Assembly: GCA_022844015.1 (NCBI GenBank)
Contig: JALHMO010000003.1
Location: forward strand, 1-64,000
Reading direction: 5' to 3'
DNA: 64,000 nucleotides
Source: Reyranella sp.
GTDB lineage: Bacteria; Pseudomonadota; Alphaproteobacteria; Reyranellales; Reyranellaceae
Shown: piece after piece, positions 34,221-39,447 of the stretch
Layout of the letters: each line of letters starts with the position of its first letter
Position numbering within the stretch: the stretch's first letter is position 1
The notes under the pieces: generated by a model
The model's input: the letters and a program-made list of their open reading frames with translations, nothing else
What the model was told of the DNA's origin: nothing
The model's database searches: none
Made by a program: the position numbers and the translations under genes

Positions 34221-34509
34221 TTGAACAGGGTTGGGGCCGCTGGTTCGGTCTGCATCTTGCCGGACGCAGTTTGTCACGACACCGCGCGCGATGGCAGGCG
34301 CGCCAGCCGCGTTGGCTCTCTTCTGCAGCCACGACTTTGTGCACCTGATTGCATGCGTCATTGCACGCGTCGCCCTCCCGGCGGTAGCGCCGCCCTCGTC
34401 CGACTATGTCCACATTCGACGCGAAGGCAAGACGCCCCAGCCGCCCGTCGTCTCTTACCGCAAGTGGCCGGCTGCCCTGACAGGAGCGCCCCCTATGAGG
34501 CGGGCCGCG

Positions 34510-34563
34510 GGAGAGGTGCCGGAGTGGTCGATCGGGACGGTCTCGAAAACCGTTGTGCGTGCA
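34510..34563 (+). pseudogene. Truncated tRNA-Ser (CGA), 5' portion
   Basis: Bases 34510-34563 match a tRNA-Ser: acceptor strand GGAGAGG, D arm GCCGGAGTGGTCGATCGGG, anticodon stem ACGGT/ACCGT with loop CTCGAAA (anticodon CGA, 34544-34546) and the first part of the long variable arm (GTGCGTGCA). The rest of the variable arm, the T arm and the acceptor 3' strand are missing; the next bases belong to a recombinase remnant on the other strand. It cannot give a functional tRNA, so an intact copy should exist elsewhere. Confidence 0.85.
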
Positions 34564-35262: not shown

Positions 35263-35789
35263 TCAGATATCAATCTCTGTTTTCCCAGATCTAAGGAAAT
35301 CCAGGAAGCCAATGCCGCGATACCTGAGGGTCTGCTGCACGCTGAGCAGGATGCAGTAGTCGGCCGTTCCCTTCGCTGTGCTGCTGGCCATGGTGTTGCG
35401 CAGGCGGGTGAACGCTCGGACAGCGTGCTCAGCGTTGTTGTTGTTCCAGGGAACACCGTCGTAGTGCAGGAAGGTAAACAGGTTCTCGCGATTTTTGCCA
35501 ATCCTCTTCTGAAGCGCTGCCGCCACCCCGGTGGAGCAGGGCATGGCGGCAACCTCGTCGAAAAAGCGCTCGGCCGCTCGCCTGTGCTTTGCCAGGTGAT
35601 GCTTTTTCAGGCCCCACCTGTCGACGGTCTCAACGATCTCCCGCAGGAGCGAGCCGAATTGCCGGGCAATAGACGCCAGTTCGTCATCGAAGGGTTGCTT
35701 GAGAAGGTCCTCGTTGATGTCTCTCATTAGGTGGATGAGGCACTTTTGCTGGCGACAGGGAATGCCGTCGTACCCACCGTAAAAGTCAC
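35263..35789 (-). pseudogene. IS66-like transposase, C-terminal part of the nuclease-transposase fusion
   Basis: Continuation of the gene that begins at 39286, cut off by the ISAzo13-family insertion. It opens SDFYGGYDGIPCRQQKCLIHLMRD, read directly from the insertion edge (cut: SDFYGGYDGIP, QQKCLIHLMRD), which is the second Asp block of IS66-type DDE transposases, and has the terminal Glu block WNNNNAEHAVRAF. If the insert and one TAA duplicate are removed, the two parts join in frame (2143 + 527 bases = 890 codons). Alone this piece has an in-frame ATG at 35727 but no catalytic core. Confidence 0.85.
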
Positions 35790-35792
35790 TAA

Positions 35793-37143
35793 GGGCTTGT
35801 CACAAAATAAACGCTTCATTGTGAGCAGGCATTGAGAGGCTGCCGTGGAATTATGGTGTAGTTCCAGTCGGGATGAAAAGCATTGTACTTGATCTTGATC
35901 TTTGCGAGCTCGGGTCCTGAGACTTTGTGTCCCTTGGGATATTGATTGACATCGATGGCGGAGACGATGTTGAGGCCTGCGGTCGTCTTGGTGGCGGCGA
36001 TCAGCTGGACGATGACCTTGTGCGTAAGCAAGGGTTTGCCGCGCCAGTTCTGGCTGATGAAGGCGAACATGCGGTGCTCGATGCGGTTCCATTTGCTGGT
36101 GCCGGGTGGGTGATGAGCGACAGTGATGGTCAGTCCGGTCTGATCGGCGAGTTTCTGCAACTCGACCTTCCATAGCCTGACGCGCGCTCCATTGCTGCCG
36201 CCGCAATCGGCGGTGATGAGCAGGCGCGTGGCCGCGGGATATCGCTTTCGGCCCATGCGCCGCCACCAGCGACGGATGCTCTCCACGGCGAAGGCTGCGG
36301 TGTCGTGATTGATGCCGACACTGACCCAGCCTTCGTTGGCGGCGATGTCGTAGACCCCATAGGGGACGGCTCTGCCCTTACCGGGGATGACGAAGTCGTG
36401 GACGCGGACCGCCTCGGGCCGGCCCTTGCGCCGCAGTTCCCGACCGTTGTTCTTGAAATCGCCGACCAGCTCCTTCTTCTTGGTGTCGACCGAGATGGCC
36501 GGCTGCCTGCCACGGCGAAAGCGCCGGATGGCATTGTTGATGTGCTCGAACTGGTCGTCTCGATCGGGATGCTGGCGACCTTCGCGGGTCTTGGCGTTGG
36601 CTTGCAGGCTGAAGCCGAGGTCCTTGAGCAGGCGGCCGACCAGGCTGCGGCTGGCGCGAAATCCTCGCTCGGCAAGAGCCGCCGACAGATGGCGGTGGCT
36701 GCGGCTGACCCACAGCAGGTCGGCCTGCGGATCGCCGCGCGTAGCCGACGCCACCAGACGCAGCAAGGCCTTGCGTAAGCCTGCTTGCTCGACACTTGCC
36801 GCCTTGCGGCCGCCGCCGCTACGACGGATCAGGCCGTGAGGCCATTCCGTCGCCTCTCTGTCGAGGTCCTTGAGGCCTCGTCCGATCGTGCTGCGGGCGA
36901 TGCCCGTAAGCTGCGACACCAAGGCGATGCCGCCGCGCCCGGCGGCGCGCGCCTCGCTGGCCGCGAATAGGCGCAGGCCCTTCTCATCGAGATGGCCAGC
37001 CACGGCCTCATAGCGCATACGAATAGCGTCGGAGTCGATCACTCACACAAGATATCGTATTACTTGCAGGCTTTGTATCTATCGGTTGATTCTTTAAATG
37101 CGTTATTCAACCCGTCTCGATTCGATTATTTCGTGACGGGCCC
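35793..37143 (-). mobile_element. ISAzo13-family insertion sequence, complete
   Basis: 1351 bases. The left end reads GGGCTTGTCACAAAATAA and the right end, on the other strand, GGGCCCGTCACGAAATAA: 15 of 18 bases match as terminal inverted repeats. It is flanked by a direct duplication TAA (35790-35792 and 37144-37146). Removing the element plus one TAA restores the reading frame of the host gene, so both edges are certain to within a base or so. One transposase gene fills the element. Confidence 0.9.
35816..37042 (-). CDS. ISAzo13-family transposase
   Basis: 408-residue DDE transposase of the ISAzo13 (Rhodopirellula-type) family. The N-terminal helix-turn-helix is GIARSTIGRGLKDL. The core shows AISVDTKKKELVG (first Asp), LLITADCGGSNGARVRLWK (second Asp) and HHPPGTSKWNRIEHRMFAFIS (Glu), in the order and spacing of this family. 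The frame is intact and fills the element between its inverted repeats, so the copy may still be active. Confidence 0.93.
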   Translation of the reverse strand: MIDSDAIRMRYEAVAGHLDEKGLRLFAASEARAAGRGGIALVSQLTGIARSTIGRGLKDLDREATEWPHGLIRRSGGGRKAASVEQAGLRKALLRLVASATRGDPQADLLWVSRSHRHLSAALAERGFRASRSLVGRLLKDLGFSLQANAKTREGRQHPDRDDQFEHINNAIRRFRRGRQPAISVDTKKKELVGDFKNNGRELRRKGRPEAVRVHDFVIPGKGRAVPYGVYDIAANEGWVSVGINHDTAAFAVESIRRWWRRMGRKRYPAATRLLITADCGGSNGARVRLWKVELQKLADQTGLTITVAHHPPGTSKWNRIEHRMFAFISQNWRGKPLLTHKVIVQLIAATKTTAGLNIVSAIDVNQYPKGHKVSGPELAKIKIKYNAFHPDWNYTIIPRQPLNACSQ

Positions 37144-37146
37144 TAA

Positions 37147-39286
37147 CCAGCACTCCTTCGAATCCTGTCAGGATGTCCTTCAGTACGGAGGACTCTCGTG
37201 AAGGGGAATAAACATACGCAACCGAGGTTAGGTTGGTGAAGACCCAAACATAGTGGCCACCACCGTAGACCACCCCCTTTGTCTCGTCCGAGTGGACGAG
37301 ATGGCCTCCCGTAATCTGCCGCAAAATGGAACGGTACATCGGCTCATACATCCGCGCGGCCTCAGCTTTCAAATCGTGAACCGTCGTGGCTACCATGTTT
37401 ACCCCGAACACCTGCGCGAGATGCTCGCTGATCTTCTGGTTTGACAGGCGCTGCTCGATGACGAGATAGATTATGTAGGCGCGAAGAGTGGGGCCATACT
37501 TCGTCTTCTGCTGGAAGATCGTCTTCTCGGCACGGCAGATTCCGCACCGATGTCGTCGGTAGCGATATCGGATTATCCACCGCTTGATCCCACCCTTAAC
37601 AAACTTTAGGTCATAAAGAATCTTGACCGTCTCGCCGAAGGACCAGAGCTTCAAAGAACCGCATTTCGGGCAACCTTCCGGCTTGTCATCTACAGCTACC
37701 TCTTGGTTGGCGGAGGTGGTCGCCCTGGAAAGTCGCGTCCTGCGAGTCGATTTGGCGATTGTCTTGTCGGTGCGAATATAGACGCGCGAACGTTGGTAGT
37801 TCCAATAAGCCGCTGCGTTGATCTTCTCGAACTCTGGAAGGGCGCATTGCAGTTTGCCAAATGTCCTCTGGAACGGCACTTCCAGCGAGCCCACGTGGAT
37901 CGTGTCGAGCCCTTGTTCGCTGTTCTCGCCGCTAAGGCCGACCAAGGCCTCGGTCACGATTTGGGCGGCATGGCAATCGTCACTATTGTAGCCGATAAGT
38001 TCCTGCTTGAGGGTGTCGTCGCTCGTCAGTTCCCAGTGGCGCCGGGCAAGGATCGCTGCCTGGCCAGACGAGTGTGGCCATTGCCATTCGAAGCCCAGCC
38101 ACCGGGCGACCTCTTTCAGACCGTTGGTGTGTGTGGGGAAATAGACTCGTCCGTAAATGATCGCGAGAATGTTCACCGCCCGCTCGATCAACCGGTCGAC
38201 GAAGTTGGTATCGCCGTCTTCCGGCGGCCACCGTTCCCTCATCTGTCTAAGAAAGCGGCTCTCGTACGCGCCGTAATGGAAGAGCCGAGGGTCTTCGAAC
38301 TGACGGAGGATGTCGAGACATTGTCGCCACATTCGGCCTTCGTCCTCGGGGCGGTCGGCCCAGAACGACCACTGCACGGGTTCTCCGGTACCATGGTGGC
38401 GAAGGCCTACCAAATAGTAGAAGTTGCGGTCCGGCGCGCCCTCAACATCGATGAAGAGTGAGTCACCGCCGGAAGGGACTACCGGCGTGCCGACAACATG
38501 AATCTTGCCTTTCTTCAGCGCGAGGGCTTTGAGCTTGTGATCGTGCCGGGCTTGCAACTCGGTTCGTCGCGGCGTCGATCTTGGTCGGCTCTTACGCCGC
38601 GGCCTGTAGCCATAAGACAGCTGGGTGATCGTCGTGATGCCTTTGTCTCTAAATTTGGTCCGCTCCTTCGGCGTGATAGCACTGAGCAGGGACAGGTCGT
38701 CCCTTTCGATAGAGATGCTGCGGCAGCGCGACTGGTATTCGCATGCGGGGCAATGCTTGTTCAGAATCGGACTCGATGCGGCTGGCGATTCTGCTAATGC
38801 TACCATGGTGTCTAGGATCTCCCGCGCTTTCGAAAGCAGGGGCACAATGTTGACGCGCTTCAGCCGAGAGTGTTGGCCATGTGCAATGTGTCCGGTGGCT
38901 GGCATTGGACAGCGCGGCCCTTGGGAAACCGCCAAGGCCGCGAAGGCGAGCAGTAGCTCATCGGATTTGTCGATCCGCTCCCAGGGGGAATATAGAATGG
39001 GGATAACATGCGGGTAGCCGCTCGGCCGCTCGGCGCCTCGACGCTGGTGCATGGGTTTGTTGGTACTCCATACGGACGATTCAGCGTCGATGGTCGGTGA
39101 GGAGTCAGCAACGGGGGCAACGCGGTCAACCTCTGCCTTTGCCTTGTATGCATCGGCTACGCTTGCACGCATTGATGACCAGAACTTGTCGCTGGGAATT
39201 TCGCCGGTGTGCACGAGCCATCCCTTTGTGGGACATTGCAAATGGGCAGCGAACGTCGCTGCCGTGATTTCTGGGCTCAACGCCAT
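37147..39286 (-). pseudogene. TM0106-type RecB-like nuclease fused to IS66-like transposase, interrupted
   Basis: N-terminal 714 residues of an about 889-residue protein. Residues 1-190 resemble the TM0106 RecB/Cas4-like family: C18 and the cluster C179-x2-C182-x5-C188 (HCPACEYQSRC) suggest a 4Fe-4S site. Residues about 275-445 form an RNase H-like DEDD exonuclease (FIDVEG with D280/E282, HYGAYESRF, GYNSDDC). A zinc ribbon follows (C539, C542, C581, C584), then an IS66-type DDE core beginning HSDETK (D667) and ending GFEGVLV, where the ISAzo13-family element is inserted. Intact except for that insertion, so recently broken. Confidence 0.83.
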
Positions 39287-39329: not shown

Positions 39330-39447
39330 ATTGCCCGCTTGTTTCAACCATGCGACAGGGAACGTCGCCATAGCTTCGGCGACCGCTGGCCACCCGTTCG
39401 AACGCCCATCCAGGATCGCCTCCACCGTCCTGCGGCGCACCCTTTGG
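39330..39447 (-). pseudogene. Serine recombinase remnant, C-terminal end
   Basis: A short minus-strand stretch reading TVEAILDGRSNGWPAVAEAMATFPVAWLKQAG (given in parts: VEAILDGR, AMATFPVAWL), which matches the last residues of large serine recombinases (VEAILDGR... PFPVEW). It starts at about the point where the other remnant at 34564-35225 stops. The two lie at opposite ends of the transposon region in the same orientation. Short, so moderate confidence. Confidence 0.5.

Follow-up and report, generated by a model that had tools for sequence, protein, structure and literature searches.

The window, a stretch of 64,000 nucleotides from a Reyranella sp. contig, carries on its minus strand one gene that has been split in two by an insertion sequence (Table 1). 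The minus-strand open reading frame (ORF) at 39286-37103 (727 amino acids) matches TIGR03491 (TM0106 RecB-like nuclease) at 171.7 bits, so that this N-terminal part exceeds the model's cut-off of 97.45 bits; it further matches RNase_H_2 (9e-21) and the N-terminal half of the IS66 DDE domain (4.4e-14). The C-terminal half of that domain is matched by the ORF at 35727-35263 (2e-6). The 714 residues before the insert and the 175 after it join in a single frame (junction GVLV/SDFYGG), giving the single polypeptide of about 889 residues with all modules that a sequence-only reading of this DNA had proposed. The same reading held that the gene was intact until the ISAzo13-family insertion, and indeed the frame is open except for the insert and intact homologues read through the insertion point without interruption. 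In the window's genome the fusion gene is single copy.

Table 1 Features of the split fusion gene and its insert (window coordinates)
Feature	Coordinates	Strand	Details
Split fusion gene	39286-35263	minus	One frame, 889 codons, broken by ISAzo13-family insertion
N-terminal 714 codons	37145..39286	minus	Cas4-like domain, DEDD exonuclease, zinc ribbon, first DDE half
Cas4/RecB-like domain	38657..39286	minus	Residues 1-210; TIGR03491, PADLOC Cas4 models, fold of homologue L010, residue census
RNase_H_2 / DEDD 3'-5' exonuclease domain	37943..38458	minus	Residues 277-448; catalytic acids retained
Zinc-ribbon cysteines	37530..37674	minus	CPKC ... CGIC
IS66-type DDE domain, first half	37145..37504	minus	Residues 595-714; first catalytic Asp; DDE_Tnp_IS66 4.4e-14
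C-terminal 175 codons and stop codon	35263..35792	minus	Second Asp and Glu of the DDE triad
ISAzo13-family insertion sequence interrupting the fusion gene	35793-37143	minus	Transposase ORF 35816-37042

The insert has a family transposase (match of 2e-164), short inverted ends (GGGCTTGTCACAAAATAA / GGGCCCGTCACGAAATAA), and a TAA target duplication (35790-35792 and 37144-37146). It is an ordinary member of the ISAzo13 family, unrelated to the fusion protein, and merely interrupts its gene. The interrupted copy has the "4Fe-4S-type" cysteines, the DxE..D residues, the zinc-ribbon cysteines, and the DDE triad; its Cas4/RecB-like domain, which is shorter than in relatives, retains four cysteines and has no D/E-x-K nuclease motif.

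No clean empty site of the window element was found in its genus, because similarity runs out on one side at the stop codon of a gene for acyl-CoA synthetase and the opposite flank is part of a different conserved region. At window positions 34486-34563, about 54 to 75 bases that are mostly 85 to 100% conserved across the genus resemble the 5' part of tRNA-Ser; ARAGORN calls no tRNA there, and the stretch may be a tRNA broken beside the element. At the left flank, a 31-mer (39341-39371; minus strand, ...GTTGAAAC) resembles the end of a CRISPR repeat and was rejected as one, there being a single copy in the window.

The fusion arose once and is sparsely distributed across bacteria and archaea

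Full-length homologues of the reconstructed protein, for which the sequence-only reading had proposed a search, are carried without interruption by two complete plasmids and at dozens of loci. Searching plasmids with the N-terminal part turned up the uninterrupted fusion in those of Acaryochloris and Calothrix. When genome contigs were scanned with a profile, 34 related loci were recovered, mostly full length, belonging to Cyanobacteria, Planctomycetota, Verrucomicrobiota, Acidobacteriota, Bacteroidota, Ignavibacteriales, Chloroflexota, Nitrospirota, and several proteobacterial groups, together with two Thermoplasmatota bins from the archaea; single taxon assignments among these loci may be wrong because many are metagenome bins. 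We aligned 42 full-length or near-full-length members, including the window copy, which span Cyanobacteria, Planctomycetota, Verrucomicrobiota, Proteobacteria, other phyla, and archaeal Thermoplasmatota bins. The family is rare: 2 of 398 Pseudomonadota carry the fusion (window included), as do 9 of 291 genomes in the order of Calothrix and 2 of 385 in the window's class. It is absent from the 75 other genomes searched in the window's order, and viral and phage collections contained no family member.

All 42 fusions form one clade in a tree of the N-terminal half that took in 12 standalone TM0106 proteins (support, 0.855) and again in a tree of the C-terminal half that took in 5 standalone IS66 proteins (support, 0.996). 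The fusion therefore arose once, and the same colinear arrangement elsewhere shows that its halves were not joined in this genome by deletion, one of the outcomes that would have undone the sequence-only reading. In plasmids, no unfused IS66 protein is more than about 25% identical to the fusions. Each module is under purifying selection, with dN/dS values mostly between 0.1 and 0.35 (two are higher, 0.56 and 0.63).

The family comprises two subfamilies. Three members (L137, L011, and L020) are chimeras between them, so nuclease and transposase halves have changed partners without the fusion being lost. L137 agrees with L130 at 92% over the first 40 residues, 65% over the N-terminal half, and 34% over the C-terminal half; L020 switches between subfamilies in the opposite direction. 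Damaged copies were also seen: a 316-amino-acid N-terminal remnant lies on Bradyrhizobium plasmid pCB82_1 (L004:3659-4609), and a Phycisphaerales copy (L025:4935-7733) has an in-frame stop after approximately residue 604 and is open elsewhere.

The exonuclease and transposase residues are conserved and the Cas4-like nuclease motif is lost

To identify the modules, we used an AlphaFold model of homologue L010 built with 24 sequences (pLDDT, 83.6). Residues 1 to 213 of the model resemble Cas4 (Z, 18.1; rmsd, 3.0; 187 residues; Cas4/Cas1, 7mi4), and residues 286 to 481 resemble the exonuclease domains of family-B polymerases (Z, 14 to 15). Overall, Foldseek ranks the ISCth4 transposase first (E, 1.6e-6); we assign this match to the C-terminal part, since Cas4 and the polymerases account for the rest of the model. 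The modules are thus, as modeled, a Cas4 fold, a 3'-5' exonuclease of the B-family polymerase type, and a DDE transposase. A profile search against PDB sequences gave nothing significant, and PADLOC returned Cas4 models only. The top viral folds for the L010 model in BFVD are giant-virus proteins (Faunusvirus, Megaviridae, CroV, and Yasminevirus), at least two of them named RNase H-like.

The four Cas4 cysteines are invariant (42/42 members), and the DEDD acids of the exonuclease are likewise present in all 42, with DxE and the final Asp invariant and the second motif always acidic. The DDE triad is complete in each of the 41 members that cover the region. At the D/E-x-K nuclease motif, both the acid and the lysine are missing from every member (0/42), while standalone plasmid relatives retain D-T-K at this position. 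The "4Fe-4S-type nuclease-like module" of the sequence-only reading is thus right as to its four cysteines but not as to nuclease residues; similarly, its suggestion that DNA-end processing enzymes were fused to a transposase holds for the DEDD exonuclease, which looks intact, but not for the Cas4/RecB-like domain, whose active site is missing in 42 of 42 members. Because the motif is lost and the cysteines are kept, the Cas4-like domain is probably a DNA-binding module instead of a nuclease. Standalone cyanobacterial TM0106 proteins (L162 to L170) also have altered nuclease motifs (TIEL, NIKL) and are partly degenerate at this site.

Against the IS66 NCBIfam equivalog model (cut-off of at least 180), P0002 scores 194.8, P0001 scores 147.1, and the split window copy scores 105.2 with its N-terminal and 50 with its C-terminal part.

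Fusion genes are single-gene units with changing neighbors and no IS66-type ends

The expectation of terminal inverted repeats around intact copies was not borne out: GTAA..TTAC ends of the IS66 type with an 8-bp duplication were found at none of 37 loci. Published IS66 elements carry 22/20 and 35/26 repeats together with 8-bp duplications (PMC3281130). Ungapped and gapped tests against mismatched flanks placed inverted repeats at or near background, with a mean gapped score within 400 bp of 10.55 versus 9.69 in mismatched flanks, a slight excess that is largely due to L034 and L080. In the same test, an IS66 copy from a Calothrix genome scored 65 and ISAzo13 scored 12; long repeats would therefore have shown, and short ones would have been missed.

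Several candidate ends were rejected. The sole result of a scan for 7- to 9-bp duplications, L022, has a 111-bp inverted repeat whose sequence marks it, in our judgment, as one dispersed in the genome, and we read the 54-bp repeat of L034 in the same way. The short ends ATTTTGT/ACAAAAT of the Calothrix clade found no confirmation in L140. As a separate observation, GTGTCACTATCGGTATT stands twice in tandem immediately upstream of the L080 gene, and similar repeats of the GGAATT type lie downstream of it.

The sequence-only reading had asked whether the protein replaces the classical tnpA-tnpB-tnpC set, and the fusion does occur as a single gene without tnpA or tnpB, neither of which recurs as a conserved neighbor. 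Neighbors vary, no partner gene recurs across loci, and the few flanking families common to loci are recombinase, ParA, PIN-type, and metabolic genes. Within a few kilobases of the fusion loci, no cas-like neighbor cluster recurs, and apart from a simple repeat in L085 we saw no array of exact repeats of the CRISPR kind. Copies inside one genome are only 32 to 50% identical, and no genome checked holds a near-identical pair, in contrast to an IS66 control pair (99.9% identical); this absence is unusual for an active insertion sequence.

Comparisons among close copies bear on the extent of the unit. In three members of the Calothrix clade (L014, L015, and L033; 87 to 97% identical), similarity ends about 12 bp 5' of the ATG and at about the stop codon. 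The left flank is present without the gene on a Calothrix NIES-4101 plasmid, and an internally deleted derivative in Aulosira NIES-50 (L140) retains both ends. In genome G779, one copy starts directly after the stop codon of the neighboring gene, and a paralogous locus elsewhere in that genome has this neighbor but no fusion. The GC content of the gene is about 6 points under that of its flanks. Speaking against movement of the bare gene, some flank differences in G779 and G657 resemble decay or deletions within toxin-antitoxin-rich islands more than transposition, and L018 and L024 have approximately 180 bp in common downstream.

Two side observations concern individual loci. Fusion copies at the G779 loci L203 to L205 adjoin yefM-like antitoxin genes, in a region rich in toxin-antitoxin genes. 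Another insertion splits the fusion gene of Calothrix PCC 7103 (end of L032, start of L087), accompanied by a duplication of about 6 bp; the ends of this insertion are also present next to L033.

Discussion

With the IS66 family (DDE_Tnp_IS66; NF033517), the fusion shares a zinc ribbon followed by an IS66-type DDE domain with the full triad. It differs in its nuclease-type front of approximately 480 N-terminal residues and in having no tnpA or tnpB, no detected GTAA-type repeats or 8-bp duplication, and no identical copies. The ISBst12 subgroup of IS66 also lacks the accessory genes tnpA and tnpB. With TM0106/COG2251 (TIGR03491), the fusion has in common the order of Cas4-like domain and RNase_H_2, the cysteines, and the exonuclease acids; however, it has lost D/E-x-K and is joined to a transposase, whereas its relatives are standalone or followed by AAA. 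COG2251 has been described as a DUF83-like domain plus RNase_H_2, sometimes with AAA (PMC3985635), and a term search of that text found no IS66 fusion. The fusion has the Cas4 fold (in the L010 model) and the four cluster cysteines of Cas4, but not its nuclease residues, and we saw no Cas1/Cas2 or CRISPR array adjoining it; a phylogenomic study of Cas4 (PMC5704561) does not mention transposase or IS66. A literature search, mostly without subscription papers, found no description of a Cas4-like/exonuclease/IS66-transposase architecture, nor a paper joining TM0106 with IS66 or DDE_Tnp_IS66 with RNase_H_2.

The best explanation as a whole, in which we place roughly even confidence, is that the fusion family is ancient, sparsely distributed, single-gene, and horizontally moving. 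A competing explanation, possible and clearly the less probable of the two, is that a co-opted transposase-nuclease serves hosts or plasmids, for example in defense or in processing of incoming DNA, and has spread by ordinary gene transfer with no transposition of its own. Such a role fits the missing terminal repeats, the one divergent copy per genome, the location on plasmids and in toxin-antitoxin-rich islands, and purifying selection on the exonuclease module about equal to that on the DDE module. It fits poorly with the lack of a conserved partner gene, with PADLOC yielding Cas4 models only, with the sizeable minority of copies that are broken or truncated, and with the very patchy occurrence in Pseudomonadota and the order of Calothrix.

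That the gene belongs to an IS66-family insertion sequence of the usual kind, bounded by terminal repeats and 8-bp duplications and differing only in its extra N-terminal domains, seems very improbable. The Pfam and NCBIfam matches to IS66, the complete triad, and the zinc ribbon would be expected of such an element, but its ends are found at none of 37 loci, inverted repeats within 400 bp score near mismatched flanks and far below the same-genome IS66 control, tnpA and tnpB are missing, and identical copies are lacking: the fusion gene does not lie within an ordinary IS66 insertion sequence. That two unrelated genes were joined in this genome by chance or by the assembly can practically be dismissed; nothing except the interruption of the window copy speaks for it, against the colinear open fusion in complete plasmids and dozens of loci and the single origin seen in both halves.

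We therefore return to the reading of the gene as a low-copy, horizontally moving IS66-type DDE transposase or integrase with its own exonuclease and an inactive Cas4-like binding domain, which we consider about as likely to be right as wrong. Under this proposal, a DNA end or a single strand would be held by the Cas4-like domain and trimmed at its 3' end by the DEDD exonuclease, after which the zinc ribbon and DDE domain would cut and join DNA. Movement would involve the gene alone, with neither tnpA/tnpB nor the classical terminal repeats of IS66; the window copy was inactivated by the ISAzo13-family insertion. We infer both the order of the catalytic steps and self-mobility. A bolder version, which we think improbable, is a one-protein analogue of the CRISPR adaptation complex, in which a Cas4-like end holder, an exonuclease trimming 3'-5', and an integrase of the DDE type would capture DNA ends and insert them with no need of fixed terminal repeats, leaving the inserted unit with loosely defined ends.

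If the proposal is correct, the family is a DDE transposase subfamily of single origin, present in bacteria and archaea, that brings along an exonuclease for end processing and a Cas4 fold put to new use. The family is relevant to the question of how integrases acquired Cas4-like domains and exonucleases as partners, as in CRISPR adaptation. Proteins annotated as "TM0106 family RecB-like putative nuclease" also include, unrecognized under that name, a transposase with an inactive nuclease motif. The intact copies on cyanobacterial plasmids offer a testable protein for transposition without classical inverted repeats.
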